From a virus: DNA of 64,000 nucleotides. The notes below the pieces were generated by a model. The model was not told the DNA's origin, did no database searches, and saw nothing but the letters and a program-made list of their open reading frames with translations. The stretch covers positions 1 through 64,000 of IMG/VR virus record IMGVR_UViG_3300049629_001293; one strand, written 5' to 3'. Shown here one piece after another: positions 3 through 62,041 of the stretch (the first letter of the stretch is position 1; each line of letters opens with the position of its first letter). The position numbers and the translations under genes are program-made.

Positions 3-341
3 GTTGAAAAGTATGTGACTGAACTGCGACAAAATCAGAAACAACCAACAGGAAAAGCTGGTCATACCGCAGGGAGTATGGCAGAGAGTGTAGATAATTT
101 AGCTACCAATTTAGCCAAACAAATGGCTCCAAAGGTTGTTGAGTTGACGGTAAAGAAACTTGAGGATGAGGTTATTAAAGAGCTATCAAAAGGTTTTGAA
201 ATGTTCATTATCAATGATTGTTTTAATCAACTCGGAATCATTATTGATGCTGAAATTCGAGAGGTTGAAAAAACTGATAACTTTCAAATCACTGGAGGTG
301 AAAACATTCTCGGTTACTTTGCGTTGCCGGAGGGCAAGTAA
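3..341 (+). CDS. hypothetical protein, 5'-truncated at window edge
   Basis: The frame is open to the first bases of the window, so the gene probably begins upstream; GTG at 15 is the first in-frame start inside it. The visible 113 residues are soluble and helical. An amphipathic stretch (LATNLAKQMAPKVVELTVKK) is followed by a short C-terminal domain. It is the first visible gene of the + strand membrane-protein operon. No family is recognised. Confidence 0.55.
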   Translation, partial: VEKYVTELRQNQKQPTGKAGHTAGSMAESVDNLATNLAKQMAPKVVELTVKKLEDEVIKELSKGFEMFIINDCFNQLGIIIDAEIREVEKTDNFQITGGENILGYFALPEGK

Positions 342-421
342 ACCAATCAAAAAACAATATCCCGATGTGGTTTTTCTTATGCACGGAGGGATTTGTTAAG
401 CAAAAAAACCAGGTACAAATT

Positions 422-616
422 ATGGTGTCATCTATCGCAAAAACAGCAAACAATATTAAGAAGTCAATGATTAACACAATCATACTCCTAATAATTGGAA
501 CGGGTATTGGAGGTGGTAGTGTCATCTGGATGCTACAAGCAAATGCAAACGGTATTTGCAGTCTACTCTCTGCAAAAAACCAATTCATTAACATAGTGCA
601 AAAGGACTCAAAATAA
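422..616 (+). CDS. small single-pass membrane protein
   Basis: 64 aa from ATG at 422, chosen over the in-frame ATG at 365 because the earlier part reads as spurious. Residues about 16-36 form one transmembrane helix containing a GTGIGGG small-residue motif. The stop codon overlaps the next start (TAATG at 614-618), implying translational coupling. Function unknown; probably a subunit of the membrane assembly encoded by this operon. Confidence 0.55.
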   Translation: MVSSIAKTANNIKKSMINTIILLIIGTGIGGGSVIWMLQANANGICSLLSAKNQFINIVQKDSK

Positions 617-1002
617 TGGATACAATTCTTCTCCCGTTGGTTCACGACAACCTGTCATGCGACACGGTGATTTCTCACAAAACCTTGGCACGACTTGGCA
701 CAAGCCTTGTCTTATGCCTTGTCTCGCCCTCTATGACAGGTCACGCCTTGGCACAACTCCCGCCAGGTTATGAGTTTCAACAGGCATATTTGCAAACAGA
801 AACTATGCCACAAAGACCGTGCCAAAACCGTCGAACCATCCAAGAATACGAATACACATTACCCCAAGAAAACCAAGAATATGAGCCACGTCAGTATCAA
901 CAGAATCCAGAGATTGCAGAACGCGGATACGGTGATTCAGGATTATCGGGGTACAGATTCAACATCGGAAGTCAAAACACAATCATCTTTAAGTTCTTCT
1001 GA
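616..1002 (+). CDS. putative secreted protein
   Basis: 128 aa. Residues about 20-47 look like a signal peptide: a basic region, a hydrophobic core (LGTSLVLCLV) and an Ala-x-Ala-like site in GHALAQ. The mature part is rich in Gln, Glu, Tyr and Pro, as in low-complexity exported proteins. It is coupled to the upstream gene by TAATG. A different-frame reading from 770 overlaps its 3' half; the signal peptide and coupling favour this frame. Confidence 0.5.
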   Translation: MDTILLPLVHDNLSCDTVISHKTLARLGTSLVLCLVSPSMTGHALAQLPPGYEFQQAYLQTETMPQRPCQNRRTIQEYEYTLPQENQEYEPRQYQQNPEIAERGYGDSGLSGYRFNIGSQNTIIFKFF

Positions 1003-1102
1003 GCTTAGACAAATGAAAAACAGAATCTTGTCACAGGACAAATGTTCTGATAAAGACCTCGAAAAACTTTCAATAATTAACGAATTACTAGGAGAAAAAA
1101 CG

Positions 1103-1294
1103 ATGAAGGTAGATAAATTTTTTGACAAGTTAAATGGGTGGCAGTGGTTAATAGTTGGAATTGTTGCAGGTTTGATTTATCAAAATATGGTAACAAGACC
1201 ACAGCCTCAAACATTACAGCCGCAAGTTTCACCCAACACTGTGATGACTCCTAATGGTGGTGCAGTGAATATGTACAAATTTGAAAACAATTAA
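1103..1294 (+). CDS. small single-pass membrane protein with Pro/Gln-rich tail
   Basis: 63 aa. ATG at 1103 was chosen because an AGGAGA ribosome-binding site lies 8 bases upstream; ATG at 1013 is an in-frame alternative that adds a charged helix. A transmembrane helix (WLIVGIVAGLIYQNMV) is followed by a Pro/Gln-rich tail. No recognised family. It has the same design as the other micro-proteins of this operon. Confidence 0.55.
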   Translation: MKVDKFFDKLNGWQWLIVGIVAGLIYQNMVTRPQPQTLQPQVSPNTVMTPNGGAVNMYKFENN

Positions 1295-1299
1295 AAACA

Positions 1300-1566
1300 A
1301 TGTCAAACAGAAAGAACGGAATCCATATCAATTACTATGAAGCTCCCTGTCAAAACTATCAACAACCAAGTGATGATTGCCAACAACAACCAAACCGGAA
1401 TGCTACATCATCAGGAATGTCTTCAAATATAATGCTTTTGCCAATAGGTTTTATATTCCTGATATTTATTTCACCTATTGTTGTAGGAGGAACAAGATAC
1501 ATTGAACGTCCTAGTCAACCATCGCCCGACATAATCATCAACAACAACAATAAAATGCAGCGATGA
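1300..1566 (+). CDS. small membrane protein
   Basis: 88 aa: a polar Gln/Asn-rich N-terminus, one hydrophobic segment at about residues 43-63 (IMLLPIGFIFLIFISPIVVG) and a short polar tail. It starts 5 bases after the previous stop and its stop overlaps the next start. No recognised family. Confidence 0.6.
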   Translation: MSNRKNGIHINYYEAPCQNYQQPSDDCQQQPNRNATSSGMSSNIMLLPIGFIFLIFISPIVVGGTRYIERPSQPSPDIIINNNNKMQR

Positions 1567-1724
1567 CAAATTTGTACACGAAAAAGGAAATGATGTTTTG
1601 GATAGTAGTTTGGTTCTTAACTTATCTCCTTTGCTTACAAAGAGGGGGTGCTGATATTGTTGATAATCGCACCCCAGACAATACCGGAGCTTTCTGTCAA
1701 GCCTACGCTCAAGGGGATTTATGA
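1563..1724 (+). CDS. micro-protein, single transmembrane segment
   Basis: 53 aa. The ATG at 1563 overlaps the preceding TGA (ATGA). One hydrophobic segment (FWIVVWFLTYLLCL) follows a short basic N-terminus; the C-terminus is polar and acidic. The next start overlaps its own stop. The tiling by ATGA overlaps and the shared topology are the evidence that it is real. Confidence 0.5.
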   Translation: MTNLYTKKEMMFWIVVWFLTYLLCLQRGGADIVDNRTPDNTGAFCQAYAQGDL

Positions 1725-1855
1725 TAACGATAAACCATAGATTCATTATCCAATGGATGATTTTTGGAATCATTCTTTACCTGACAATCCCCCCTTTAGT
1801 CGCAATTCACAACAACATTGTTTGTAACAGATATTATGGACTTCACAAAAAATAA
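1721..1855 (+). CDS. micro-protein, single transmembrane segment
   Basis: 44 aa starting at the ATGA overlap with the previous gene. A hydrophobic helix (WMIFGIILYLTIPPLVAI) is flanked by basic residues. Overlaps the next start at 1836. No recognised family; support is positional. Confidence 0.4.
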   Translation: MITINHRFIIQWMIFGIILYLTIPPLVAIHNNIVCNRYYGLHKK

Positions 1856-1988
1856 ACAGAATTTGATTTGGTTAGGAATTGCAGCCGTTGCAGCAGCATT
1901 TTTCCTTTATTCAGGAAAGATTAACCTACCTAACCAACAGCAATCACAGTCACCGCAACACCAGACACCAGGAGCTTTGAAATGGTAA
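1836..1988 (+). CDS. micro-protein, transmembrane segment with Gln/Pro-rich tail
   Basis: 50 aa. Residues 11-26 (LIWLGIAAVAAAFFLY) form a small-residue-rich transmembrane helix, followed by a Gln/Pro/Ser tail. In layout (short N-terminus, helix, polar tail) it is like the 63-aa protein at 1103. It overlaps the neighbours on both sides. The size and topology recall filamentous-phage coat proteins or small translocon subunits, but there is no sequence evidence for either. Confidence 0.5.
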   Translation: MDFTKNKQNLIWLGIAAVAAAFFLYSGKINLPNQQQSQSPQHQTPGALKW

Positions 1989-2278
1989 ATGATTATCCAG
2001 AGATAGTTTCGTTATTGATTGAACAAGCAAAATCAACTTTTAAACCCAAAGATGTAATGCTTGACCCTGATTGGGTGACTAACACACTTTTCACTTATCA
2101 ACAAATGCCAGAATATTCACCCATGTCTGAAACACATCAAGATTGTGTTTGGGGTGCTGAGAGTATCAAGCCTCGCTCTGAGTGGAATATCACCAAAGAG
2201 CAAAATGAGATTTCAGTTAAAAGATGGAAAGAAAAATGGATGGCTGAACGTAAACAAAAATATGCTCAAAGATTTTAA
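1982..2278 (+). CDS. hypothetical protein of a local three-member family (DYPEIV family)
   Basis: 98 aa. It is clearly paralogous to the product at 6734: shared DYPEIV near the N-terminus, WVT-x-TLF-x-YQ in the middle, DCV-x-x-G-x-E, then RP/RSEWNIT-type residues. A weaker relative is encoded at 6404. No function is recognised. The start overlaps the preceding stop, and the end overlaps the rhomboid gene by 17 bases. Confidence 0.75.
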   Translation: MVNDYPEIVSLLIEQAKSTFKPKDVMLDPDWVTNTLFTYQQMPEYSPMSETHQDCVWGAESIKPRSEWNITKEQNEISVKRWKEKWMAERKQKYAQRF

Positions 2279-2813
2279 ATGTGCAGCTACCTATCTGGGA
2301 ATAATGTGGGCTTTGGAAATGTTTTTCCCAGAATTTGATTATTTTGGAATCAGACCAGGAGTGGAAGGCATAGGAATGTTGGGAATTATATTCTCGCCAT
2401 TCCTACACGGAGACCCCCAACACTTGATAGGGAACACAGTCGGATATTTGCCATTGGCAACCCTGACAATTTTCAAAGCCCCTGGAAAATTTAATTACAA
2501 CTTTTGGGTGATTTCAATAATTGAAGGCTTTGGTGTTTGGTTCTTTGGTCAACCTGGTTCAAATCATATAGGAGCAAGCGGGGTGATATATGGTTTTTTT
2601 GGATTTTGTCTTCTTAGTGCTGTCTTTCGTCTTGATTTTCCTAATCTGGTATGCGCTGTCATTACCTGGATAATATTCCAAAATTTAATCGGCGGAATGC
2701 TGCCATCGGTTGCCCAAGGGATTAGTTGGGAAGGTCATCTGGCAGGGTTTATTGGTGGTGCGATAGCGGGGTATTTAGATGCAAATTCTCAAAGAAAATT
2801 GGAGGCAAATTAA
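2262..2813 (+). CDS. rhomboid-family intramembrane serine protease
   Basis: 183 aa, start at ATG 2262 inside the end of the upstream gene. It shows the rhomboid signatures: an HGDPQHLIGN segment in the second membrane region, the catalytic serine in GASGVIYG and the catalytic histidine in WEGHLAGFIGG. About six transmembrane helices match the minimal bacterial rhomboid core. It would cleave substrate transmembrane helices within the membrane. The neighbouring single-pass micro-proteins are natural candidate substrates, but that is inference from position only. Confidence 0.88.
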   Translation: MLKDFKCAATYLGIMWALEMFFPEFDYFGIRPGVEGIGMLGIIFSPFLHGDPQHLIGNTVGYLPLATLTIFKAPGKFNYNFWVISIIEGFGVWFFGQPGSNHIGASGVIYGFFGFCLLSAVFRLDFPNLVCAVITWIIFQNLIGGMLPSVAQGISWEGHLAGFIGGAIAGYLDANSQRKLEAN

Positions 2814-3080
2814 ATGTATTTGCAACAATCTGAAACCCAGACCTCCCCCCAGATAACAGGATTGATGGTATTTAATTGGTCAATGGGTTTGCTGAGTTTA
2901 TTGTTAGTTGGTTTGATAACTTCTGAAGTTGTCAGGCTAATCAATAAACCAACAGAGGAGTTTCAAAAGTTTGTAGCCGTAGCCAACCTTTCAGGTTATG
3001 AAAAATGCCTGAAAAACAAAGGTGGCGAAGGGTGCAAAGAACAGCTAATTATTGAATGGAGAAAAAGAAATGGCAACTAA
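2814..3080 (+). CDS. single-pass membrane protein
   Basis: 88 aa, beginning directly after the rhomboid stop. One transmembrane helix at about residues 17-40 (VFNWSMGLLSLLLVGLITSE), then a soluble charged C-terminus containing two cysteines (KCLKNKGGEGCKEQ). Overlaps the start of the next gene. No recognised family; possible rhomboid substrate or partner. Confidence 0.65.
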   Translation: MYLQQSETQTSPQITGLMVFNWSMGLLSLLLVGLITSEVVRLINKPTEEFQKFVAVANLSGYEKCLKNKGGEGCKEQLIIEWRKRNGN

Positions 3081-3585
3081 ATTAGACGGTTTACGCAATC
3101 GTTTTTCAACTGGAAACATTATCAAAGAAGCTGGCACGGGCGCTAATTTCTCTAAAGTGATGAGTCCAACAGGAAAAGGTGATATCACCCCCTATACCCG
3201 TGAACGCTCCTATGCAGGAACCGATGAATTTGACCAACAGTTTAATATTTCTGACCGAGTTAACCCATCTGAAAATGAAGCTAAGGGAGCTAAGATTATT
3301 GCCGAAAATGCAATCAAAGCAGCATCAAATAAAAAGGTAATTGTCGAAGCTCAATTGAAAGTTGACAAAGCACGGACTGAGTGGTACGAAGCTGACCAAC
3401 AATATGTTAAAGGTGTGGCAGAAGGTTCATTGAAACGTTTTGAGGAAAAGATTCAAACTCAAAAAATGTTAGATGGTCAAGCTCCTAAATATATGCAAAT
3501 CGTTGGTAATTACGCTAACGAAAATGTAGGGGCTGTTAACGTGATGCGCCAGTTGGACAAAATTGAAAACTCGATGAAACTGTAA
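3070..3585 (+). CDS. hypothetical soluble helical protein
   Basis: 171 aa. ATG at 3070 was chosen because GGAG lies upstream at good spacing and the extension from 3052 overlaps the previous gene. Flexible, Gly/Thr-rich first 70 residues, then long amphipathic helices (about 75-140) of coiled-coil character. There is no membrane segment, unlike its neighbours, so it could be a soluble adaptor or the moved or assembled component. No recognised family. Confidence 0.65.
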   Translation: MATKLDGLRNRFSTGNIIKEAGTGANFSKVMSPTGKGDITPYTRERSYAGTDEFDQQFNISDRVNPSENEAKGAKIIAENAIKAASNKKVIVEAQLKVDKARTEWYEADQQYVKGVAEGSLKRFEEKIQTQKMLDGQAPKYMQIVGNYANENVGAVNVMRQLDKIENSMKL

Positions 3586-3592
3586 ATTTATT

Positions 3593-3613
3593 TGGGGGTG
3601 AAACATTCCCCCA
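3593..3613 (+). promoter_or_regulatory. intergenic GGGGGTGAAA hairpin
   Basis: Inverted repeat with stem GGGGG/CCCCC around TGAAACATT, in the short gap before the ATG at 3622. Near-identical hairpins lie at 38250-38266 and 39181-39197. There is no T-run, so it is more likely an mRNA processing, stability or translation element than a terminator. Confidence 0.45.
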
Positions 3614-3621
3614 ATCAAAAC

Positions 3622-3975
3622 ATGAAACTATGGAAAGTCAAAAAGTTTTCAATCTTTGGAACAGGTTTATCTTGTTCCTTTTTGTTATCACATTTTGCTT
3701 TGCTTTATCCTGAAGCTAGAGTATTGCTAATTTGTCTTTATCTGGGTTTGATTGTTGGTAGTGTTATTTTATATTTAATTTCTGATAATCAAGATACTGT
3801 AAACTCTGATGAATTAGTTTTTGGTGCTATAGCTTTATTGATTGGTGTTTTTTATGCTTTAGGAATAGGTCAATCTTGGATAGTTTTAAGATTATTATTA
3901 TGGATTTTATTGTTGATTGTCACTGTTTCAATTTGGATATATTTCACATTACCTCAACCTGAAAACAATGAATAA
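3622..3975 (+). CDS. polytopic membrane protein
   Basis: 117 aa from ATG 3622; the earlier in-frame start at 3592 would run through the upstream hairpin. Four strongly hydrophobic segments: about 12-30, 36-52, 63-82 and 88-108. The stop overlaps the start of the ATPase gene at 3968, so the two are probably coupled and may interact in the membrane. No recognised family. Confidence 0.7.
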   Translation: MKLWKVKKFSIFGTGLSCSFLLSHFALLYPEARVLLICLYLGLIVGSVILYLISDNQDTVNSDELVFGAIALLIGVFYALGIGQSWIVLRLLLWILLLIVTVSIWIYFTLPQPENNE

Positions 3976-5860
3976 CACCCCTGAACATTTAAAAAATCCT
4001 CACCTGTCAGCATGGGCATTGGGATTAACAATTGCTGGTTGTAGTTTAGCGATGTTTTCACCTTTGGCAATCAACAAAAACCCACAATTAGGGATTGTTG
4101 GCACGTCTGCGGGTGCAGTGCTATCCATTGCGGGGTGGGTGATGGGGAGTCAATCAGAGAAATCAATCAAGCTACAAGCCAAGGTAGAGGAGCAAACCGA
4201 GGCTATATTCCTGCGGCGGTTGGGGATGGAATATGAGTTAGAAAAATTTAGGGATATTAGATATTTGAACGAAAGTCAGCAAGCGATCGCGCAGCCTAAA
4301 AGCCATGATCAAACATTACCACCATCGCAACAAAGAAGGTCGGATGACAATGAAGGGAATCTTCACCGGAGTCAATTGATGGTTTTAGACCGAGAGAGTC
4401 CTGTGGAATATAATCAAGAGAATCATGATATCTATTCAGATGAACTATCATTTATTCCTTGCGATATTCCCTCCAATCATATCTTAAACTTCTATAACTG
4501 GGATAAGTTAGCCGATGAGTCTTCAGGAATATTAATCGGGGGAAATTCTGGGAGCGCAAAAACATCTCTAGGTGCTGGTTTCGTGATTGGCAAACTAACT
4601 GAGCATAAACCCGCCGAGGTGATTGTTTTGGATATCCACGCTTCAAAAAACCCTATCTGGCAACAAATGGGTTTCCCTAGGGTTGAATCAGATGTTGAAA
4701 TAATTTATCAGATTTTGTGCTGGCTAATTGAAGAAGTCGAAAACCGAAAAGAAAAAGACGGGCATTCTATCATTGTCTGCTTGGATGAAATCAATGATAC
4801 GATGTCCGAGTTAGCACAATTAGACACTATCAAACCATTGCAAAACAAGGAAAAAAGAGTTAAGACTTTTACTTATGCGATTCGGAAACTTTCTAATGCT
4901 AGAAAGTTTGATATTTGTTTAATCGGTTTCATGCAAAGTCATAACACCGAAGCCATAGGAATTGATGGGAAGTTTAGAAATAATTTCCTTTTAATTCTTT
5001 GTGGTGCTAGTGCTAGGAGTGAGATTCAAAACTTGTGGAAACATGACACCCCTGAATTTCAGTACATCCAAAGTGCTGCCTATCCTGTTGTTGTTTGTGG
5101 TTCTAATCAGCATCAAATCGCAGAACACCCAACGCATAAACATCATCTTGAGTATAGAAAAAAAGGCAATGCTCCTGATGGTTTATTAAATCCTATTTTT
5201 TTAAATAAACCAATAGATGTTAAAATAGTTCCATCACCTAATATCAATCTAAAAAAAGATGATGTTCCTAAAGTGCTACAATCAATAAATCCCTTAGATT
5301 GTAATACCTGGCAATCAATAGATTATCCCAGTGGCTTGCAATGGCTACCACAACACGAGGCGGGAGTATATTGTGTATTTGTTAGCGGTTATCAAAACCC
5401 TCTTTATGTAGGTCAATCTAAAGACCTTTGGAGACGTTGGAACAATAAAGGTGACTGGGAACATCATGTTAAAAAACATCTTGAATCAATTGGTGATGTA
5501 TCGGTGAAAATAGCTTTTTACATCACAAAAAATTGGGATGAGCAAAAACGTTTAACTCTTGAGTCAGAATTACAAGCTAAATATAAACCTTCGTGGAATG
5601 GAACAGCTAACAAAACATTACCCGATAAAACACTTTCTGAATCGGCTCAAGCGGTGTTTAATTTCATCAAGGAAATATTTAAGGGTGAACCTATACCAGC
5701 CCGTGACTGTTACCGCAAATCATCACTCAGAACTCAGTTTGGATTAAATGCTGAAACTACTGAGTTGATATTTGATGAATTGCAAAATTTTGGTTTAGGT
5801 CAAAAACTAATCAAGGAAATTAATGGTTTCAGAAGTGTTAACTTTTTACCTGATATGTAG
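3968..5860 (+). CDS. membrane-anchored FtsK/HerA-like ATPase fused to a GIY-YIG nuclease domain
   Basis: 630 aa. Two N-terminal transmembrane segments (about 13-32 and 38-55) and a helical linker lead to a P-loop NTPase domain with Walker A GGNSGSAKTS (about 190-199) and Walker B IIVCLDEIND (about 266-275). The P-loop has Ala where Gly normally precedes the Lys. From about 465 to 555 lies a GIY-YIG domain (GVYCVF...LYVGQSKDLWRRW...ELQAKYKPSWN), then a winged-helix-like tail. FtsK/HerA ATPases pump DNA, and GIY-YIG domains cut it, so the fusion suggests coupled DNA translocation and cleavage at the membrane. The NTPase assignment is confident; the exact subfamily (conjugation, packaging or segregation) is not. 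Confidence 0.8.
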   Translation: MNNTPEHLKNPHLSAWALGLTIAGCSLAMFSPLAINKNPQLGIVGTSAGAVLSIAGWVMGSQSEKSIKLQAKVEEQTEAIFLRRLGMEYELEKFRDIRYLNESQQAIAQPKSHDQTLPPSQQRRSDDNEGNLHRSQLMVLDRESPVEYNQENHDIYSDELSFIPCDIPSNHILNFYNWDKLADESSGILIGGNSGSAKTSLGAGFVIGKLTEHKPAEVIVLDIHASKNPIWQQMGFPRVESDVEIIYQILCWLIEEVENRKEKDGHSIIVCLDEINDTMSELAQLDTIKPLQNKEKRVKTFTYAIRKLSNARKFDICLIGFMQSHNTEAIGIDGKFRNNFLLILCGASARSEIQNLWKHDTPEFQYIQSAAYPVVVCGSNQHQIAEHPTHKHHLEYRKKGNAPDGLLNPIFLNKPIDVKIVPSPNINLKKDDVPKVLQSINPLDCNTWQSIDYPSGLQWLPQHEAGVYCVFVSGYQNPLYVGQSKDLWRRWNNKGDWEHHVKKHLESIGDVSVKIAFYITKNWDEQKRLTLESELQAKYKPSWNGTANKTLPDKTLSESAQAVFNFIKEIFKGEPIPARDCYRKSSLRTQFGLNAETTELIFDELQNFGLGQKLIKEINGFRSVNFLPDM

Positions 5861-5905: not shown

Positions 5906-6319
5906 ATGAAAAAACTGTTTTTATCACTATTGACTGTTACATTATTGAGCGTATCTTTTGCTAATTCATGTTTAGCTAATGCAAATAGAACGATATTTAA
6001 TCGTTCAGGAAATAGTTTGGCTAATGCAAATAGAACGATATTTAATCGTTCAGGAAATTATTTAGTTTTTATATCAAAAAACAAAAAAACACAACACATA
6101 ATAAAAAATCCTTTAGATATACCTCAACAATTAAACATCACTTCAGATATCCCTTTTCGTGTTATTTGTGAAAAAGATTACGGTGCAGACTATTGTTCAG
6201 GATATTTTGATAGAAGTTATCGAGTGATGAAACCAAATGAATCAATAATTGTCGAATTTTATGATTTATATGGTGGGATAAAAAATACATTAGCTATTTC
6301 TTTTTCCAATCTAAAATAA
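5906..6319 (+). CDS. small secreted protein with internal tandem duplication
   Basis: 137 aa with a clear signal peptide (MKKLFLSLLTVTLLSVSFA, cleavage near SCLA). A 39-base segment at 5975-6013 is repeated exactly at 6020-6058 (45-base period), giving two copies of LANANRTIFNRSGN. The rest is beta-rich with two cysteines. Its AT-rich composition and flanking 25-bp direct repeats suggest separate acquisition. No recognised family. Confidence 0.65.
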   Translation: MKKLFLSLLTVTLLSVSFANSCLANANRTIFNRSGNSLANANRTIFNRSGNYLVFISKNKKTQHIIKNPLDIPQQLNITSDIPFRVICEKDYGADYCSGYFDRSYRVMKPNESIIVEFYDLYGGIKNTLAISFSNLK

Positions 6320-6733: not shown

Positions 6734-7006
6734 ATGAAAAAGTCCAAACCAAAATCAGACTATCCAGAGATTGTCGAGTTAGTTGTTGATACTGCCAGAA
6801 AGCGCGGCGGGAATCAATTATTAACAGATGTCAATTGGGTAACTAAGACCTTGTTCAAATATCAGAATGGTGTGATTCCCTTGACTGATACCGACTCCGA
6901 TTGCGTCAGGATTGGAGAGGAGTTAAGACCCCGTTATGAGTGGCAGATCACCAGAGATCATGTAGCTTTTGCTAATCAGAATAGTATTAAGAAGGGATGG
7001 AAATAA
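6734..7006 (+). CDS. hypothetical protein, DYPEIV family
   Basis: 90 aa. Conserved with the product at 1982 over most of its length (DYPEIVELV, WVTKTLFKYQ, DCVRIGEELRPRYEWQIT). It begins immediately after the preceding stop and overlaps the RuvC-like gene by one base (TAATG). The conserved Trp, Asp-Cys-Val and Arg-Pro positions suggest a small folded domain. Function unknown. Confidence 0.75.
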   Translation: MKKSKPKSDYPEIVELVVDTARKRGGNQLLTDVNWVTKTLFKYQNGVIPLTDTDSDCVRIGEELRPRYEWQITRDHVAFANQNSIKKGWK

Positions 7007-9630: not shown

Positions 9631-12600
9631 ATGATTATTCAAAGACATCGAGACGAGTTCCTGGCTTCAGCTATTCATCCCCATATTATCGACTTAAACT
9701 TTGAGTCACTCAAGGGACAGGATGCTCTTGAAGCCGTATTATACGGGGAGATGGAAGCTCTAGGGAAAAAATCACCCCACTCGCTTCAGTACACCACAAC
9801 CCCCCTCAAGAGGCTTTTTGAACGCTTCAAGCACCTAGAGGACGGGGGGTGGAGTTTTAGGGGCATTGATCCTCTCAACTGTTCCCAATATATGAAATGG
9901 GGATGTTTTAAAGCCGATAGACCTCGCTATAGTTTCAGCGACCTATTGAAGATGATTAAATACGAGCATCCGGGGAAAGTGCCTACACGAGCATTTTTCG
10001 TGGTGCCATCCTGGGAGATTGGGGTAAAAATAGCCATCAAAGCGGGTGAGCAGTATATTGAAAGCTACAAGTCCCGATGTCCGCAAGGGGACTTTGATTG
10101 GAGTGAGGGCGATCGCTACTTTTGGGAGTGGGCAATTGAGATCAACTTGCCAATCACGATCACCGAGGGGGCTAAGAAAGCAGCGTGCTTGATATCGGCG
10201 GGATACGCTTGCATCGGATTACCTGGGATTACTGGGGGAGTGCGGACTAGCCGAGAGGACGGTAACGGATTTAAGGAGAAGTGCGCTCCTTACCTGATTC
10301 CTGAGTTAGAGATTTTTGTGACGACAGGGCGACGGGTGAATATTGTTTTTGACCATGAAACAAAAATCAAAACCATTCGCAACGTCCAAAGGGAGATAAA
10401 TAAATTAGGTGAGCTTTTTCAGAAGGACAAACGGGATGTCCGTGTGATCAGTTTTCCTGGGCCAGAGAAGGGAGTTGATGATTTTATCATGGCGCATGGA
10501 GAAGAAGAATTTGATCTTCTATATAACAAGGCTCCTGATTATCGGATTTATCAATTCAACAGAGGGTGGCAACTAACCAAGACTCCGACATTGACCCTAA
10601 ACGTTCGATATTTGGGAGATTTACCCACTCCTACTACTGGGCCTGTTTTTATCTACTCAGGCATGGGAACAGGGAAAACTAAACGGCTAGAACCTATCGC
10701 CCAGGATGCTATTGCTAGTGGGCGGAGGGTTTTGGTGATTACCCACAGGGTTGAACTTGGGCGGGCAATCTGCAATGCGGTGGGTGTGCCTTGGGTTGAG
10801 GAGTGCAAGGGAAGCATTGAGGGGAAAAACCTGGGGTACGGGTTGTGTGTAGATAGTTTACACCCACTGAGCCAAGCCAATTTTAACCCAGAGGATTGGG
10901 AGGGTGCGGTGGTGATCATAGATGAAGTTGAGCAAGTCCTTTGGCATTTGTTCAATTCAACAACCTGTGCCGAAAAACGGACAGCAATCCTTTCAAGTCT
11001 GGAAACGTTACTGAAAAGCGTTCTAACAACGGGAGGATTATTAATTGCCCAAGATGCCGACCTTTCAAATTACTCAATTGACTACCTTACGGAATTGTCG
11101 GGGATTGAAAATCTGGAACCCTACATTGTCGTCAATAAATACAAAGGAAACGGGCGCAAGGTTCGTTTCTATAGCCATAAAGTCGAAGCACTCTATAAAG
11201 AGATAGACAAGCAAATTCGTGAAGGCAAGCGAATGATAATCGTGGAGGATAGCCAAAAAGTTAAAGGCAAGTTCTCGGCAATCAATATGGAATCACACAT
11301 CCGCAAGAATCATCCCCACGTCCGTGTTATTCGGATTGACTCGGAGACTGTATCAAATCCAAATCACCCGGCTTTTTGCTGTGCAAAAAACATTGACACG
11401 GTGATTGAATCGGGTCAATATGACGTTGTGATTGCTTCCCCCACAATCGGGACAGGTGTATCTATTGACCTCAAAGGCTATTTTCACAGCGTGTTTGGGC
11501 TTTTCAAGGGAGCGATCGCCACAAACGATGTCCTCCAGATGATGTCGCGGCTTCGGGACTTGGCGGCTGAATGGCATTTATGGTGCGCTCAATACGGGTG
11601 CAGCAAGGTTGGGAATGGGTCATCTGGCGCGCACGTCCTCCTTGAATCTCAAGATCGGGTGACTCGCAAGCATATCGAAATCTTAGAGAAATACGACAGG
11701 GCAGGATTTGATATCGACACCCAAACCGACACACGGCACACAAGTGCATGGGCTAAGTATGCGGCACGAATCAACGCAGGGCAGTGGAAATACCGAGAAA
11801 CGGTTCTTTACCTATTGAAACAGGAAGGGCATGATGTTTCCAATTCGGATGATTCTCAAATGCGGTTTGACGAGGATAGATTAGCTTCTGAAGAAGCGAT
11901 CGCCCGACAAATGGGGGATTTAGAGAAAGCCGACGATATTCAATACGAACGGGGACGGATTGAAGTCATCACGGACGAGCTTGACAGTAAGATTCAGGTA
12001 ATCAAAGCCGAGGCGGAGGAGATTCGCACCCAGAATCGGGTGGCGAACGCCGAGGTAATCACGAACGCGGAGGATATTTCGTTCTCTAAATACGAGAAAC
12101 TGCAAGACAAGAAAGCCAAAACCCCAGAAGAACTGGCGGAGCAGCAAAAATACTACCTGAAGGACACATATAAAATAGATGTCACGCCAGAGCTTGTCTT
12201 AAAGGACGAGGACGGTTGGCTAAAACAGCTACGATTGCACTATTTCTATATGAATCCTGAGCAAGTTCATGATCGGGATGCCAATCACATCAAAAATGCG
12301 GTACAAAACGGGGATGGGCAAGTCCACCTGCCGGACATCAAACTTTATAGTGCCTGTGTTGAAATTCTCAAGTTGATGGAACTGGATCGATTCCTGAACG
12401 GAGAGGAATTTACTAATGAATCCGAATTGATCCAAAAACTAGGCAAAATCTTCAAGGAACAGGGGCGAGAGATTCGGGAATATTTTAAGGTAGGGCCGAC
12501 AGGCTTGACCCCGATTGCTCAGATCAACCGATTTTTCAAAGATACTATTGGACTAAGAATGTCTGGGCGGCAAATCCGTGACGAGGAAGGGAATAGAACA

Positions 12601-13203
12601 AGAGCTTATTCCTTCAAAGGCTTTGAGGATGGACGTTCTGTGGTTTTTGAAGCCTGGGATAAAAATGTAGCCCAATATACCAATAACGAGATAATGGCTG
12701 TCACACCAAAACATAATAGAAGATTAATAAAAAACACTGACACCACTAATAAAATTCAGTGTGATCAAATTCAGTGTGATCATGGAGAAGAAGGAACACC
12801 CTTTCCAGTAGATATAAAGCGGGGGGAAGAAGCCCAGCAAGTAGCGATTTCATTGACCGAGCCAGAAGAAGCTCAAAACACTCCCAAAGATTGGCAAAAT
12901 CAGGGGAGTGCGGTGGGTTCCGGTACTTTGGTAGAGGCGGTGTCGAATAGTTGGAAGGGTGTTGTGCGGCTGGTTAAGTCGGTCTTCCCTGAATGTTGGG
13001 TAGCTAAGTATGAAGTCAGCTTCCTAAAACGAAACCTCTTGCTAGAGACAGCAGGGAAGGCATTTACAATCGACTCACCCACCGCACAATGGGTTCATAA
13101 CGCATTAGACCCCGATGGTGGTGCATGGGCTTTCCAGGGCTACATAGAGGGCAGTACGCAGATGTACACAATCCCTCTGGGATGCCTGGATTTCAATCCA
13201 TAA
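9631..13203 (+). CDS. CyRepA1-family replication protein (primase-like plus helicase)
   Basis: 1190 aa. The N-terminal third carries the DUF3854-type region typical of cyanobacterial plasmid replication proteins (PITITEGAKKAACLISAGYA, then GLPGITGG, at about 175-205). A helicase core follows with P-loop GMGTGKT (about 345), Walker B VVIIDEVE (about 428) and later motifs SPTIGTGVSID (about 602) and MMSRLRD (about 635). The C-terminal 500 residues are charged and helical. The protein would recognise the origin, unwind and prime. Ten iterons start 10 bases after its stop, matching a rep-ori unit. Codons near 12690-12780 contain a segment duplicated at 30.73-30.84 kb. Confidence 0.88.
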   Translation: MIIQRHRDEFLASAIHPHIIDLNFESLKGQDALEAVLYGEMEALGKKSPHSLQYTTTPLKRLFERFKHLEDGGWSFRGIDPLNCSQYMKWGCFKADRPRYSFSDLLKMIKYEHPGKVPTRAFFVVPSWEIGVKIAIKAGEQYIESYKSRCPQGDFDWSEGDRYFWEWAIEINLPITITEGAKKAACLISAGYACIGLPGITGGVRTSREDGNGFKEKCAPYLIPELEIFVTTGRRVNIVFDHETKIKTIRNVQREINKLGELFQKDKRDVRVISFPGPEKGVDDFIMAHGEEEFDLLYNKAPDYRIYQFNRGWQLTKTPTLTLNVRYLGDLPTPTTGPVFIYSGMGTGKTKRLEPIAQDAIASGRRVLVITHRVELGRAICNAVGVPWVEECKGSIEGKNLGYGLCVDSLHPLSQANFNPEDWEGAVVIIDEVEQVLWHLFNSTTCAEKRTAILSSLETLLKSVLTTGGLLIAQDADLSNYSIDYLTELSGIENLEPYIVVNKYKGNGRKVRFYSHKVEALYKEIDKQIREGKRMIIVEDSQKVKGKFSAINMESHIRKNHPHVRVIRIDSETVSNPNHPAFCCAKNIDTVIESGQYDVVIASPTIGTGVSIDLKGYFHSVFGLFKGAIATNDVLQMMSRLRDLAAEWHLWCAQYGCSKVGNGSSGAHVLLESQDRVTRKHIEILEKYDRAGFDIDTQTDTRHTSAWAKYAARINAGQWKYRETVLYLLKQEGHDVSNSDDSQMRFDEDRLASEEAIARQMGDLEKADDIQYERGRIEVITDELDSKIQVIKAEAEEIRTQNRVANAEVITNAEDISFSKYEKLQDKKAKTPEELAEQQKYYLKDTYKIDVTPELVLKDEDGWLKQLRLHYFYMNPEQVHDRDANHIKNAVQNGDGQVHLPDIKLYSACVEILKLMELDRFLNGEEFTNESELIQKLGKIFKEQGREIREYFKVGPTGLTPIAQINRFFKDTIGLRMSGRQIRDEEGNRTRAYSFKGFEDGRSVVFEAWDKNVAQYTNNEIMAVTPKHNRRLIKNTDTTNKIQCDQIQCDHGEEGTPFPVDIKRGEEAQQVAISLTEPEEAQNTPKDWQNQGSAVGSGTLVEAVSNSWKGVVRLVKSVFPECWVAKYEVSFLKRNLLLETAGKAFTIDSPTAQWVHNALDPDGGAWAFQGYIEGSTQMYTIPLGCLDFNP
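12755..12781 (+). repeat. two ATTCAGTGTGATC repeats inside the rep gene
   Basis: Two direct copies of AATTCAGTGTGATCA at a 14-base period inside the coding sequence (KIQCDQIQCD). The same motif (as TGTCACACTGAATT) recurs in the intergenic region at 30.7-31.1 kb, so these are probably protein-binding sites as well as codons. Confidence 0.6.
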
Positions 13204-13212
13204 AATAGGCAA

Positions 13213-13322
13213 TATTGTCCTGATATTGTCCTGATATTGTCCTGATATTGTCCTGATATTGTCCTGATATTGTCCTGATATTGTCCTGATATTGTCCTGA
13301 TATTGTCCTGATATTGTCCTGC
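13213..13322 (+). repeat. ten 11-bp iterons, putative replication origin
   Basis: Ten head-to-tail copies of TATTGTCCTGA (nine perfect, the last 10 of 11) start just after the rep stop. The 11-base period puts each copy on the same face of the helix, as in iteron origins. The following sequence (13355-13390) is AT-rich, suitable for opening. Open frames read through the repeats are artefacts of the periodicity. Confidence 0.85.
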
Positions 13323-30550: not shown

Positions 30551-30856
30551 TCAGTTTAGAGGCCAATAATAGGGAATTTGAGGAGGGTTGACACTGGTTT
30601 TAGTAGATTCCCATTGTGACCATCCCCTCAAGCCCTCAAACCCCGTCATCCCCGTGTGGTTTTCAGCCCTCCCATTAGATCTAATGGAGGGGGGATCTTT
30701 ATCCTTCTGTGTCACACCAAAAAATTTGTCACAGTGAATTCTGTCACACTGAATTCTGTCACACTGAATTTTTATCACAGTGTTTTTTATTAATCTTCTA
30801 TTATGTTTTAGTGTGACAGCGATTATCTCGTTGTTTGTATCATAACCTGATACCAT
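30551..30856 (-). pseudogene. fragment related to the rep gene C-terminus
   Basis: On the - strand the stretch NNEIIAVTLKHNRRLIKNT followed by KIQCDRIQCD parallels NNEIMAVTPKHNRRLIKNT...KIQCDQIQCD in the replication protein (12690-12780), in the same frame. About 50 bases are almost identical at DNA level (30786-30834). The rest of the frame is not rep-like. Best read as a partial duplicate carrying binding repeats. Confidence 0.55.
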
Positions 30857-31093
30857 TTTAAGGATTTCTTAACTATCTCCAGAAGCCACACCCCATAAAG
30901 GTTAGAGCCATTTTACTGCTGTTGAAGAAAAAATCATATTATTTAAGAGTCCAACACCTTCTCCTCTGTCACACTGAATGCCATTGGGTTAAGGTTACGG
31001 GAAATAATAGCTTTTCCCCCACTTTACCCCCATGACACACTGAATAACTTAAACCCTATGAAACATGACACACTGAATAACTTAAACCCTATG
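30709..31093. repeat. TGTCACACTGAAT repeat cluster (possible second origin or control locus)
   Basis: CTGTCACACTGAATT-type 15-base units at about 30726, 30741 and 30756, partial copies at 30709 and 30774, an inverted copy at 30811 and another at 30966. ATGACACACTGAATAAC within a 30-base direct repeat occurs at 31031-31060 and 31064-31093. The same core is inside the rep gene at 12755-12781. The 720-base gap 30416-31135 otherwise holds no gene I can support. Confidence 0.7.
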
Positions 31094-35774: not shown

Positions 35775-36170
35775 TTAACTATCGGCGTTAAAACCATCTA
35801 CAATCCCCATCAAATCAGGAATCAAAGATTGAATCTTTAAATATTTTTCCGATAAAGCCGCCTCCATTGCCTCCAGCCGTGCCTCTATGTCAGGGTCAAT
35901 TGTCGGGGTTTGTCGTGCCTCTAGTTTGGCAATTCTGTCCAGCAGTTCAGCGTAGCTTGATTTGGGCTTTTCAACCTTCCTCTCTAGTTTTACCTCGCCA
36001 TCGGTTAAGGTTTCAATCCCACTAATCAGGATATCTCTGATCGTTTTTGATTGGTCATAGTTAACGCTCCCCCTGTTGTTAGGGGCTGTGGGGTAATGTT
36101 CCCGTCCGTAGGCTTCTATTGCAGTCAGAAGGTCGTCGGGACATCGGAAGTTAATCAGTCTGTTAGCCAT
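35775..36170 (-). CDS. ribbon-helix-helix-like DNA-binding protein, putative centromere-binding or master regulator
   Basis: 131 aa. The N-terminus (LINFRCPDDLLTAIEAYG) and following helix (SKTIRDILISGIETL) match its paralogue at 17817. The C-terminal half is a coiled coil, likely for higher-order assembly. Just upstream of its start lie AAAGTAAAAC and eight 12-bp repeats, and similar boxes occur at three promoters to the right. Ribbon-helix-helix plus short tandem repeats is the arrangement of partition centromere proteins and their autorepression. No ParA-type ATPase is seen. Confidence 0.7.
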   Translation of the reverse strand: MANRLINFRCPDDLLTAIEAYGREHYPTAPNNRGSVNYDQSKTIRDILISGIETLTDGEVKLERKVEKPKSSYAELLDRIAKLEARQTPTIDPDIEARLEAMEAALSEKYLKIQSLIPDLMGIVDGFNADS

Positions 36171-36222: not shown

Positions 36223-36318
36223 AGGACAAATAACAGGACACATAACAGGACACATAACAGGACATATAACAGGACATATAACAGGACATATAACAGGACA
36301 CATAACAGGACATATAAG
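36223..36318 (+). repeat. eight 12-bp tandem repeats, putative centromere or iteron array
   Basis: Eight copies of AGGACA(A/C/T)ATAAC, the last ending AAG, with no spacers. The array lies 53 bases from the start of the divergent ribbon-helix-helix gene. The core AGGACA is shared with the complement of the origin iteron (TCAGGACAATA). Confidence 0.85.
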
Positions 36319-46989: not shown

Positions 46990-48549
46990 TCAGTTCCCTT
47001 GCCTAACTACAGAATAGATAAAATCAAACATTTCTGGATCGTTCTTAGCTAGGTAAATAGGGTTCCTGTGCATTAATTCTAATCCCATTGATAAAACCTC
47101 TGTATTATACATATTACTCCCGTACACTTTCCCCATGTAAGGATGTATCCATTTATCAACCTTGGTAACTTCGTAATCTTCGTAATTAAGTGGATGTACA
47201 TCTTTTAATTTTACTATCTCCTCTCCGGCAGTTCTTCTATTATAAAAATTAAGCACCTCTTTGTGTATTAAAGGGGAACGATCCTCTATCCAATGCCCAG
47301 CTTCATGTATTAATGTTGCTTTCTCCGTGGTTCCCATGTCAATAGTCCCCGTTGGCCAGCAACAGCTTCTTTGTCCTTGTTTTATTTCACGGATAGACAA
47401 TGTACTGGTTAACCCTGGAATTTCAATCATTCGAGAAAGTTCTTCTATCCCATCCTGATATTCTTTTTTTCTCTTTTTATCTAAAACTGTATTGTTAGTA
47501 TTGATTTTTGTGGGATTATCCACATAGATTAATTTTCTGGCTTCTTGAAGAATTGCCTTAATTCTTTCGTTCGTCTTGGCTCCAGTGTAGTATTCAATGT
47601 TTTCATTTGTTAAAAATTGAGCTATAACCTTTTTAGGTAAAAATCGGGGTACGGGAGGGGAATTGTTTAAGTCTTCCTGTAATTTTAATAACTGCGCTCT
47701 TTTCCCTTGTGCTTCGATCATCAATGCGTCTCGTCTTCCCTTCCGTTGTTCCAATAAAATATCTAATTCTGCATCTTTAGCCTCTTTCTCCTTTCTTTCT
47801 TTCTCCCATTTCGCTCTAATCTGATCTGCTTTTATTCTAAGTTGTTCTGATATTGTTCTGAACTTCTCATCTACCTCATTAGCTTTTTTGAGACGTTCTT
47901 GTTCCTCTAGCATTACCTGTTTCTGTTTTTCTGATTTCTTTACTTCATATTCTTTCCTTTTTCTTTGTACTTCCTCCCAGTCCTTTATTAACAAGGGTTC
48001 TGTTATTTTCTTGAGTTCATCAGCTTTTTTAAGAAATTCTTTTTCTTCTTCGGGTAAAATACCTGGTTTCGTTGATCGTCTTAAATATTTTGCTCGTAAT
48101 TCGTTTAATTTAAAAAGCCTTTCCTGAGAAAAATCGTCCTGAGCATTGGCTCTGCAACTTTTCTTGATATTGATACAAATACTTCCACAATTATAGGAAG
48201 TTGGCTTTACACACTGGGCTTTCTCCCTTTTCGCTCCCCCTGCATCAATTCGGTAAGAATAACCTGCTGAGAAGTCTTCCCAATTCTTTAAATCAACACC
48301 CCGACTATCAATTCTAGGGGTGAATGGTTTATAAACAACCGACTTCCTGTTTATCTCAAAGGAAAACACACGAGATCTGGTTAAGTCCTTAAACCGCCCT
48401 GTTATCTTTTCATTCTCCAGGGTTCCAGGATCGAAATCTAGCACAATGACCGGAGCATTATAGGCAAATGACATTGACAGAATTTGACCTATTGCCAATC
48501 TCATCTGAGCTTCGGAAGGTGCCATGTTAGGGGCAAAAGATTGAACCAT
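46990..48549 (-). CDS. modular virion effector: shared N-module, Cys module, HExxH metallopeptidase
   Basis: 519 aa. Residues 9-110 are the shared N-module (APSEAQM, SFAYNAPVIVLDF, GRFKDLTRSRVFSF, then IDS, WEDFSAGYSYRIDA). The Cys module follows (C-x7-C-x3-C-x6-C with YNCGSICIN), then a long coiled coil. The C-terminal zincin has LIHEAGHWIE (zinc-binding HEAGH, 415-419) and a downstream EVLSMGLE likely to give the third ligand. Its last 110 residues align with the products at 48859 and 50022. Probably an injected protease; target unknown. Confidence 0.8.
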   Translation of the reverse strand: MVQSFAPNMAPSEAQMRLAIGQILSMSFAYNAPVIVLDFDPGTLENEKITGRFKDLTRSRVFSFEINRKSVVYKPFTPRIDSRGVDLKNWEDFSAGYSYRIDAGGAKREKAQCVKPTSYNCGSICINIKKSCRANAQDDFSQERLFKLNELRAKYLRRSTKPGILPEEEKEFLKKADELKKITEPLLIKDWEEVQRKRKEYEVKKSEKQKQVMLEEQERLKKANEVDEKFRTISEQLRIKADQIRAKWEKERKEKEAKDAELDILLEQRKGRRDALMIEAQGKRAQLLKLQEDLNNSPPVPRFLPKKVIAQFLTNENIEYYTGAKTNERIKAILQEARKLIYVDNPTKINTNNTVLDKKRKKEYQDGIEELSRMIEIPGLTSTLSIREIKQGQRSCCWPTGTIDMGTTEKATLIHEAGHWIEDRSPLIHKEVLNFYNRRTAGEEIVKLKDVHPLNYEDYEVTKVDKWIHPYMGKVYGSNMYNTEVLSMGLELMHRNPIYLAKNDPEMFDFIYSVVRQGN

Positions 48550-48557
48550 GATTCTAC

Positions 48558-48857
48558 TTAATAAACAATTTCAGACTCATCAACCACTTTCCCGTTAATT
48601 ACCAAAGGAGGAGGAGCAATAGGTTGATCCATCACTGTCCCGTCAAAAGTCTTCGCCAGTTCTGTTGCAATCAACCAATCGGGGTCGGGAGTTGCAGGGG
48701 AATTAAGCCAGAAGAAAGGCGAGTCAGGGTCTATGGCTGCCAATTTCTCCATTGCTAATACATTGTTCAGGATCGAGGCATAATGGGGCGTTGAGGATGT
48801 CCAAACTCCATTCTCAATAACTGCCACTACACCGTTGATTTTGACGCGATAAGCCAT
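48558..48857 (-). CDS. small virion-region protein
   Basis: 99 aa between two metallopeptidase effectors, 1 base from one and 8 from the other. Beta start (YRVKINGVVAVIENGVWTSS), then a Pro-rich end. No Cys or N-module. Could be a chaperone, immunity-like partner or minor virion protein; the sequence does not say which. Confidence 0.5.
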   Translation of the reverse strand: MAYRVKINGVVAVIENGVWTSSTPHYASILNNVLAMEKLAAIDPDSPFFWLNSPATPDPDWLIATELAKTFDGTVMDQPIAPPPLVINGKVVDESEIVY

Positions 48858-48858
48858 G

Positions 48859-50025
48859 TTAACCTCTTCTAACTACCGAATAAATAAAATCAAACATATC
48901 GGGGTCTTGTTTAGCGAGTGCGACTGGATTCCTATACATTAATTCTAAACCCATTGAGAGAATTTCCGTTGACTCGTCAGGATAAACTTTTCCCATATAA
49001 GGACGCATCCATTTATCAACCTTTGTTATTTCAGTATCTCTATACGATTTGATTCCGGTTGCGTCTCGCATTTTGACCGCTTTTTCTCCCTTTGTCCTGC
49101 GATTGTAAAATTCTACAACTTCTTTCTTTATTTCTGGGACGGAGTATTCTATCCAGTGACTTAATTCGTGAATAACTGTACCAGGGTCATCATTCCCCAT
49201 TGACACGGTTTTATCTGCATTATTATAATAACTTCTCTTATCTCCCTCTGGCAAGCCTTTGACATTAACCTTACTCGTTAAACCAGGAATTGACACCATT
49301 AAAGACAGTGATTGAATCCCCTCATCCCATCGGGATTTATTCTTTTTATCTTTTACTTTAACATTAAGATTTGTAGGTAAGTTGACTTGAACTAATTTCC
49401 TGACTTCACTTGAAAACCTTTTGAAGTCTTCTGATGCAGCCTCTAATTCTCTTAATTTACCTTCACTTAAAATATCAGCCAATGGCGGATTCGTTTTTAA
49501 TAGTTTATCAATTTCTTTCTTTGTTCTTTTTATTAATTTAGCTAAGTATTTCTCTGGCTTTCCATCGTCAATAGCCTTTATAATAGCACTACCTTTGTGT
49601 TTAGAAGGATCAAATTTAGATATAAAATCCTCTGACATTTTATCTAATCGTCCCCTAACTTCTTTCGCTTCTTCTAATAACCTAACTTTTCTTTGTTCTG
49701 GGGTTTCTGGTTTATTTATTGGTTTCTCTTTAGCAAGCAAGGGAATGTCGGGGGTGAAATCATTGATTGACTTTAAGTTGTCGACACCAGGAGGAATAAT
49801 AGGATTGGATTTAATAGCCTTTTCTTTTGCAGACCTTCTACTAACGGCGGTAACGTAATCAATTCCTATCGCTTTTAGCTTCTCAAGCCTATCCTTTGAC
49901 CTAGAATCATTCGGAACTATCCTGCAATTTTTCTTAACATTAATGCAAGATAGACCACAATTATAGGAAGTAGTCTTTACACATTGAGCTTTCTTTTCCC
50001 TCTTGTCTTCTCTATATTTAATCAT
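48859..50025 (-). CDS. modular effector: Cys module plus HExxH metallopeptidase
   Basis: 388 aa. Begins directly with the Cys module (AQCVKTTSYNCGLSCINVKK), without the N-module. A Lys-rich helical middle and a zincin domain follow: VIHELSHWIE (286-290 as HELSH) and TEILSMGLELMYRNP. Start overlaps the stop of the paralogue at 50022 (ATGA), so the pair is a tandem duplication. Zinc-peptidase activity is expected from the motif. Confidence 0.78.
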   Translation of the reverse strand: MIKYREDKREKKAQCVKTTSYNCGLSCINVKKNCRIVPNDSRSKDRLEKLKAIGIDYVTAVSRRSAKEKAIKSNPIIPPGVDNLKSINDFTPDIPLLAKEKPINKPETPEQRKVRLLEEAKEVRGRLDKMSEDFISKFDPSKHKGSAIIKAIDDGKPEKYLAKLIKRTKKEIDKLLKTNPPLADILSEGKLRELEAASEDFKRFSSEVRKLVQVNLPTNLNVKVKDKKNKSRWDEGIQSLSLMVSIPGLTSKVNVKGLPEGDKRSYYNNADKTVSMGNDDPGTVIHELSHWIEYSVPEIKKEVVEFYNRRTKGEKAVKMRDATGIKSYRDTEITKVDKWMRPYMGKVYPDESTEILSMGLELMYRNPVALAKQDPDMFDFIYSVVRRG

Positions 50026-51122: not shown

Positions 51123-51237
51123 TTCAGAACATCACCATTAAGTTTATTGGGTTACTTTTTTGTATTGATTTTTCTTCGAGATAAAGCATAATTAATAGTA
51201 GGAATTAACTATGTTTTATTTGGGATTGAGTCGTCGC

Positions 51238-52653: not shown

Positions 52654-52664
52654 GGTTAAATCTC

Positions 52665-54614: not shown

Positions 54615-54715
54615 GTTTTTGCTCTTCCTTTTGCTTTAGAAGTATTTATACAAGAATTGCCGCAATCGCAAGAAGTGGGTTTAACACATTTAGGTTTTTC
54701 GCTTTTGACCCACAT
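54611..54715 (-). CDS. 34-aa stand-alone Cys module
   Basis: Encodes little except the Cys module (PKCVKPTSCDCGNSCIN). It fits exactly between the stop of the gene at 54717 and an ATGA overlap with the next gene. Relative to the consensus it lacks the last Cys and has an extra one before the second. It could be a live mini-protein or the remains of an effector deleted down to this module. Confidence 0.6.
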   Translation of the reverse strand: MWVKSEKPKCVKPTSCDCGNSCINTSKAKGRAKT

Positions 54716-54716
54716 A

Positions 54717-61903: not shown

Positions 61904-62041
61904 TTAATATTGTTTTGACTTTTGACTGTTTTCTGTCTTTTGGGTAGCTAACCGATTCTTGTCTTCAAGTAGACGATTATACGCTACAACCTCATCAAGA
62001 ACTCGGTTTTTTTCCAAATCGGTAAGTTTTTTGTAGTTCAT
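61904..62041 (-). CDS. small coiled-coil protein
   Basis: 45 aa, ATG at 62041 overlapping the end of the upstream effector by 47 bases, with AGG seven bases before it. One amphipathic helix (DEVVAYNRLLEDKNRLATQK). Support is modest: coding-like helix and coupling. Confidence 0.4.
   Translation of the reverse strand: MNYKKLTDLEKNRVLDEVVAYNRLLEDKNRLATQKTENSQKSKQY

Follow-up and report, generated by a model that had tools for sequence, protein, structure and literature searches.

The DNA analyzed here is a stretch of 64,000 nucleotides, hereafter the window, corresponding to bases 1-64000 of a 98,464-base IMG/VR virus record (IMGVR_UViG_3300049629_001293, designated G000). It opens with an operon of small open reading frames (ORFs A to L) and a rhomboid protease gene, followed by the gene for a membrane-anchored ATPase, which is the main subject of this report (Table 1). 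An initial annotation had placed an operon at 3-5860 and described in it at least five single-pass proteins of 44-88 residues, tiled by ATGA/TAATG overlaps, ahead of a rhomboid protease, a four-helix membrane protein and a membrane-bound FtsK/HerA-like ATPase. Most of this is borne out: there are six single-pass micro-proteins of 44-88 amino acids (aa; ORFs B, E, F, G, H and J), ATGA overlaps join E to F and F to G, B and C abut as TAATGG, the rhomboid is recognized by Pfam and retains GASG and the distal His, and the multi-helix protein before the ATPase is ORF L. Further overlaps of a few to ~20 nt occur at G/H, H/I, I/rhomboid, J/K and L/ATPase. Two amendments are needed, as ORFs I and K are soluble and the operon starts upstream of the window. 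A second contig (L016), 100% identical to G000 in the overlap, joins the right end of the record to its left end (junction L016 4144-5512), which indicates a circular or circularly permuted G000 genome. The ~1.4 kb between the record ends that is missing from G000 contains the start of the operon, with a helix-turn-helix-like ORF (L016 5046-5303) and the 5' end of ORF A.

Conservation was assessed with Nei-Gojobori dN/dS (nonsynonymous to synonymous substitution rates) in pairwise alignments with relatives whose ATPase is 85-90% identical. The order and frame of ORFs A to L and the ATPase are kept in nearly all cases, and dN/dS lies between 0.04 and 0.5 in nearly all comparisons of the operon ORFs: 0.08-0.09 for the ATPase, 0.04-0.17 for K, 0.14-0.17 for L, 0.10-0.14 for J, ~0.1 for B (four relatives) and 0.22-0.48 for C (five relatives). 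For ORF H, dS was saturated in two comparisons, and ORF B is nearly unchanged in the nearest relative (L020). The operon is real and conserved, and its micro-ORFs are not chance. ORFs C (616-1002) and D (881-1294) share 122 nt in different reading frames, and relatives keep both; the start of D was set at 881, where the conserved alignments begin. ORF K corresponds in position to a protein of 160-220 aa in relatives. ORF I is an insertion that is not found at this place in more distant aligned relatives, and it probably lies outside the operon core.

Table 1. Features of the window, with their positions and the basis of each assignment.
Feature	Position	Strand	Basis
ORF A, soluble, 3' part of a 181-aa protein, start outside the record	3..341	+	complete copy L016 5307-5852; conserved
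ORF B, single-pass micro-protein, 64 aa	422..616	+	sequence; dN/dS
ORF C, 128 aa, signal-peptide-like N terminus, probably exported	616..1002	+	sequence; dN/dS
ORF D, 137 aa, soluble part and one C-terminal hydrophobic stretch	881..1294	+	conservation, sequence
ORF E, single-pass, 88 aa	1300..1566	+	conservation, sequence
ORF F, 53 aa, hydrophobic N terminus, ATGA overlap with E	1563..1724	+	conservation
ORF G, single-pass, 44 aa, ATGA overlap with F	1721..1855	+	conservation, sequence
ORF H, single-pass, 50 aa	1836..1988	+	conservation, sequence
ORF I, soluble, 98 aa, paralogue of 6734-7006	1982..2278	+	alignment to relatives
Rhomboid protease, 183 aa, GASG...H motif	2262..2813	+	PF01694 E 5.6e-17
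ORF J, single-pass, 88 aa	2814..3080	+	conservation, sequence
ORF K, soluble, helix-rich by sequence, 171 aa	3070..3585	+	dN/dS, position
ORF L, 3-4 predicted transmembrane helices, overlaps ATPase start	3622..3975	+	conservation, sequence
Membrane-anchored FtsK/TraB-type ATPase, 630 aa	3968..5860	+	Pfam, profile, model
ATPase part: transmembrane region	4004-4144		
ATPase part: motor	~4469-5206		
ATPase part: GIY-YIG	~5363-5590		
ATPase part: C-terminal domain	~5633-5857		
Exported protein with signal peptide, 137 aa, downstream of ATPase	5906..6319	+	sequence
CyRepA1-type plasmid replication protein (DUF3854)	9631..13203	+	PF12965 E 2e-42
10 perfect copies of ATATTGTCCTG, directly after rep gene	13212..13321	.	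repeat search

The description of the ATPase as membrane-bound and FtsK/HerA-like stands, with two N-terminal transmembrane (TM) helices predicted at residues 13-59 (two also in most family members) and a P-loop motor of FtsK/TraB type; the initial annotation had overlooked the GIY-YIG domain (PF01541, E 0.003, under the curated cut-off). The C-terminal domain comprises 70-90 aa and is helical in a low-confidence model. The family profile of the motor was set against known motors one at a time, and the E-values refer to one comparison each and not to a database search. TraB of pIJ101 was matched at 94.6% (E 6.6e-8, 151 columns) and E. coli FtsK at 90.8%. No match was obtained with F TraD (9%), F TraC (11%) or M13 pI (2.4%), and the similarity to RecA (30%) and PRD1 P9 (23%) is confined to the P-loop; as controls, the phage's own terminase scored 0.5% and shuffled sequences at most 0.2%. 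Among Pfam families FtsK_SpoIIIE is the commonest weak match (16 of 19 family members), and Zot was reached only at E 0.14 in two members, so that neither pI nor Zot points to a motor of that type. As the full-length model was too poor, the motor was folded alone (246 aa, pLDDT 80): the first six matches in the PDB are to TcpA of pCW3, followed by FtsK and EssC among others, and the viral fold matches include packaging ATPases. We assign the ATPase to the FtsK/TraB-type DNA motors with high confidence. Membership of the TraB family itself is not claimed, because a winged helix-turn-helix (wHTH) and, for the window, recognition repeats are unproven.

Members of the ATPase family occur on cyanobacterial plasmids as well as in at least three lineages of phages. 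By tblastn the motor is found on 13 PLSDB plasmids of Planktothrix, Annamia and Pseudanabaena, with more distant queries also on Nostoc and Allocoleopsis plasmids, and further on at least 25 IMG/VR contigs, in nine genome loci and in 10 of the 390 cyanobacterial genomes scanned; no INPHARED phage record gave a match. None of the plasmid or distant phage loci inspected showed a rhomboid close to the ATPase. Small membrane proteins do occupy the corresponding place upstream of the ATPase in distant relatives, and the 3 kb ahead of the ATPase gene is enriched in small TM ORFs (31/65 versus 35/284 elsewhere; odds ratio 6.5; Fisher p 2e-9, on crude ORF calls).

The named hosts are Planktothrix, Pseudanabaena, Nostoc, Tolypothrix, Phormidium, Symploca, Allocoleopsis and Annamia, which we take to be all filamentous genera (unconfirmed for Annamia). 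CyRepA plasmids of Synechococcus and Acaryochloris are present in the same collection, and none of four queries found the ATPase in these two genera. This host pattern, drawn from four queries and not from a systematic survey, agrees with a filament-specific role.

Judged from its genes, G000 is a tailed phage: PHROGs identify a terminase large subunit (phrog_979, E 5e-35), a portal (3e-80) and a major head protein (3e-53), and genes for a processivity factor and a ribonucleotide reductase are also present. Its hosts are probably filamentous cyanobacteria. The G000 terminase was detected via PHROGs rather than Terminase_6N; genes of the latter type lie on motor-bearing phage contigs of three lineages, and nine plasmid records with the module have no match to it. 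From this pattern the head genes and the ATPase module probably have separate histories. Some of the module-carrying phages have no DUF3854 replication protein (Rep), and phage-plasmid status is therefore argued for G000 and one relative only.

The replicons that bear the module are poor in recognizable conjugation genes. VirB4 was found on none of the 22 replicons tested, and relaxases of the families tested on three, with G000 among the 19 negatives; MOB-suite classifies the close plasmid family as non-mobilizable. On the Pseudanabaena plasmid ABRG53g (12,574 bp), the recognizable functions are only Rep, ParA-like and ParB-like proteins and this module, next to small ORFs of no assigned function; it gave no relaxase match. 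On Nostoc plasmids the module adjoins a ParM gene, and on Pseudanabaena plasmids ParA/ParB-like genes.

On the plasmid relatives, short repeats (GTCGTAA, CATGACA, AAGACA) straddle or follow the ATPase stop codon. In Planktothrix plasmids, a region made up of the last ATPase codons and the 150 bp after them contains several direct GTCGTAA copies and then inverted ones, or copies of CATGACA; at four loci (L003, L004, L033, L034) the repeats at this 3' end form the densest 7-mer cluster of the 12-21-kb locus. Pseudanabaena plasmids carry AAGACA/TGTCTT repeats there. Repeats resembling those of a Streptomyces clt locus, at the 3' end of the motor gene, are thus found on plasmids of both genera.

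The repeats and the C-terminal domain of the ATPase appear to be exchanged as a unit. In P. agardhii No.365, plasmids p2 (L099) and p4 (L100) show nearly 100% identity over a stretch that begins ahead of the ATPase start and runs to about +880; up to +1180 they remain near-identical except for one short block. Over the following ~390 bp, which span the C-terminal domain, the stop codon and the repeat array, identity drops to ~40-54%, and it recovers to ~89% in the gene after that. Between p2 and p4, the C-terminal domains are 35% identical. Similarly, L098 and L099 have motors of 98% identity, C-terminal domains of 33% identity and no shared repeat 6-mers, whereas L003 and L099 have C-terminal domains of 79% identity and both carry a CATGAC core. 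GTCGTA is present with CyRepA1 (L100) and with DUF3987 Reps (L096, L097), as is CATGAC (L095 with CyRepA1; L003 and L099 with DUF3987), so that the motif tracks the C-terminal type and not the Rep type, and a role of these repeats as Rep iterons was rejected on that ground. For the plasmid family, recognition in cis through the C-terminal domain and the repeats is likely; the domain would bind the adjacent repeats, and together they would form an address cassette.

From these observations we tentatively propose, by analogy, that the operon encodes a relaxase-free pump for double-stranded DNA (dsDNA) that serves cell-to-cell spread and works like the Streptomyces TraB/Spd systems; we rate this reading at somewhat under an even chance, and cell-to-cell transfer as such as evenly balanced. 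Two N-terminal helices would anchor the ATPase in the cytoplasmic membrane, and it would select its own replicon through its C-terminal domain on a site in cis. It would then pump dsDNA through a channel or cell-cell junction built with the small membrane proteins, without use of a relaxase or a type IV secretion system, and the replicon would thereby be spread between cells, most likely neighbors in a filament. The small proteins would act as the channel, and the phage copy would act like the plasmid copies. The wider proposal, that the phage passes its genome along the filament without virions by a conjugation-like dsDNA pump acquired from, or common to, cyanobacterial plasmids, and that these plasmids rely on the same pump, likewise free of a relaxase and with address cassettes that can be exchanged, is doubtful. 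Of the readings offered in the initial annotation, a DNA-transfer channel is the best supported, given the FtsK/TraB-type motor and the TraB/clt-like anatomy of the plasmid relatives.

Several observations weigh against a TraB-like pump. The FtsK_SpoIIIE matches all fall under the Pfam cut-off, and TcpA and EssC, from other secretion pathways, are equally close in fold. The C-terminal domains match the winged helices of TraB or FtsK at less than 3% in profile comparison, their model is poor, and the window ATPase carries a GIY-YIG nuclease, which TraB does not. The C-terminal domain and the repeats are physically adjacent, and linkage through a single recombination would by itself also explain their co-exchange. 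The enrichment of small TM ORFs derives from crude calls on related loci, and ORFs K and L, the nearest partners, are by profile comparison not demonstrably homologous across lineages and are positional analogues only; conservation of the micro-ORFs at the sequence level holds within the phage family. Finally, no repeat array lies beside the ATPase in the window or its close relatives, and repeats elsewhere in the G000 genome are generally not common to relatives. The C-terminal domain of the window ATPase resembles the CATGAC type, but the CATGAC clusters predicted from this relationship are not present in the G000 genome. As its own repeats and a wHTH match are absent, the TraB analogy for the window rests on the motor, the anatomy and the kinship with the plasmids.

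Other repeats do occur in G000. The ATATTGTCCTG array after the rep gene could be an iteron array or a cis site. About eight copies of AGGACATATAAC (36223-36317) lie just upstream of an ORF (35775-36170, minus strand) that is ribbon-helix-helix-like by eye and form a candidate centromere or operator; a CAGGACA core is common to both arrays. Repeats of TGTCACACTGAA cluster at window 30727-31077 and G000 89853-89975, but were not adopted as a phage cis site, being found only in G000 and one relative. Directly after the rep gene, a relative (L018 18690-19170) carries a CRISPR-like array with repeat GTTTCAATCCATAAAATAGGCAATCGTCTATTGCGGG and spacers of ~35 nt, and the window retains a truncated GTTTCAATCCATAAAATAGGCAATCGTCTATTGCGGG-type repeat at 13192-13214, followed by the ten 11-bp repeats. 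Away from the operon, a run of paralogous proteins (46990-56075 and 61995-63632) has a common 'KPxCVKPTxYNCGxxCIN'-like segment and differing C-terminal domains that are enzyme-like by eye. The gene for the exported protein downstream of the ATPase contains a 45-bp tandem duplication.

The ATPase could instead be an intracellular segregation motor that clears or positions plasmid or phage DNA at the closing septa of a polyploid filament, without transfer. Its motor class is that of FtsK/SpoIIIE, and the module's position beside ParM or ParA/ParB-like genes fits such a role; these replicons, however, already have a partition system, and the array of small membrane proteins exceeds what FtsK or SpoIIIE needs. 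The two activities are not separable by sequence alone, but we consider segregation unlikely.

An ordinary conjugation or mobilization function, in which a TcpA/ConQ-type FtsK-like coupling protein feeds a relaxase-bound strand to a secretion channel, is improbable. TcpA is the best fold match in the PDB, PGAP names one distant homologue a 'type IV secretory system conjugative DNA transfer family protein', and three replicons do carry a relaxase; yet the lack of VirB4 on all 22 replicons and of the tested relaxases on 19, the MOB-suite prediction and the low TraD-type similarity speak against it. With so little similarity, and VirB4 absent, a VirD4-type coupling protein with a type IV secretion system was rejected.

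Pairs of HerA and a nuclease are known in defence. A membrane motor that, with a GIY-YIG or HNH nuclease, cuts incoming DNA and so acts in phage or plasmid exclusion would accord with the GIY-YIG domain fused in the window and encoded separately in L002, and with the HNH-like ORFs after the ATPase of L037, L038 and L040. It appears quite improbable, since PADLOC gave no convincing match for the ATPase or its partners, many family members have no nuclease, and coresident plasmids of one strain each retain a copy, some with differing C-terminal types and repeats, unlike a defence acting in trans. The nuclease genes themselves vary: in two Planktothrix plasmids (L002 13008-13764 and L095 5008-5763) a GIY-YIG gene follows an ATPase that ends within its C-terminal domain, and the GIY-YIG protein bears a C-terminal domain resembling that of the window ATPase. 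The fused protein of the window may represent a later stage of the same event. The HNH-like ORFs were recognized by eye; Planktothrix-type copies have GIY-YIG or nothing at that place.

That the operon is the remains of a filamentous or membrane-containing virus, as the initial annotation had suggested, and would be a virion assembly or DNA packaging module retained by the tailed phage, is highly improbable and was rejected: small membrane proteins and a P-loop ATPase do co-occur in such viruses, and packaging ATPases are among the viral fold matches, but M13 pI is not matched, PRD1 P9 only at the P-loop, G000 encodes a terminase, a portal and a capsid of its own (the capsid is a major head protein of tailed-phage type, and no filamentous or double-jelly-roll capsid gene was recognized), and the nine module plasmid records have no Terminase_6N match.

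If the operon is a relaxase-free dsDNA pump, it would bear on how cyanobacterial plasmids spread, an open question because, according to the prediction by Smillie et al. (2010) as cited in PMC8600333, most of them have no conjugation genes; such a pump would offer plasmids without the usual conjugation genes a route. It would also make cyanobacteria a second bacterial lineage, beside Streptomyces and relatives, that pairs filamentous multicellularity with FtsK-type plasmid transfer, and a tailed phage using it would have two ways to spread, as particles and by being pumped directly from cell to cell.

Among known systems, the proposed outcome, plasmid transfer between cyanobacteria, is that of VirD4/VirB4 conjugation (e.g. 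pCC7120alpha, PMC8600333), but here there is no VirB4, no VirD4-like motor and mostly no relaxase. FtsK and SpoIIIE share the motor fold and profile and the order of TM anchor, motor and small C-terminal domain; in contrast to them the present ATPases are plasmid- or phage-encoded, with differing C-terminal types and a much shorter linker, and at the ordinary sequence level the family is not near FtsK. TcpA, a membrane-anchored FtsK-like ATPase of conjugative plasmids, has the closest solved fold, but acts together with a relaxase and dedicated transfer genes, which on nearly all of the present replicons were not detected.

The exact composition of the operon matches no described system, as first stated, yet the Streptomyces TraB/Spd plasmids are a close functional analogue. 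The FtsK-type motor of TraB/TraA (pIJ101, pSVH1, pWTY27) gives the best profile match, an N-terminal TM anchor is common to both, and by analogy relaxase and type IV secretion system would be dispensable here too. TraA of pWTY27 is a 688-aa FtsK-type protein with two TM helices that binds clt, which consists of 16 bp within the traA end and 159 bp with short direct and inverted repeats (PMC3583192), and TraB of pSVH1 is cited there as reading 8-bp repeats via a C-terminal wHTH (Vogelmann, 2011); in the cyanobacterial plasmid relatives, direct and inverted repeats likewise lie at the 3' end of the motor gene, as in clt/TRS. Spd proteins are highly diverse between Streptomyces plasmids (PMC4170104), and here too several diverse small membrane proteins are encoded in one operon. 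The differences are a cyanobacterial, Gram-negative envelope, motor similarity at the profile level only, a C-terminal domain unmatched to the TraB wHTH with no repeats by the window's gene, and the GIY-YIG domain of the window copy, the rhomboid and the presence in tailed phages. In both cases, the hosts are filamentous and multicellular.

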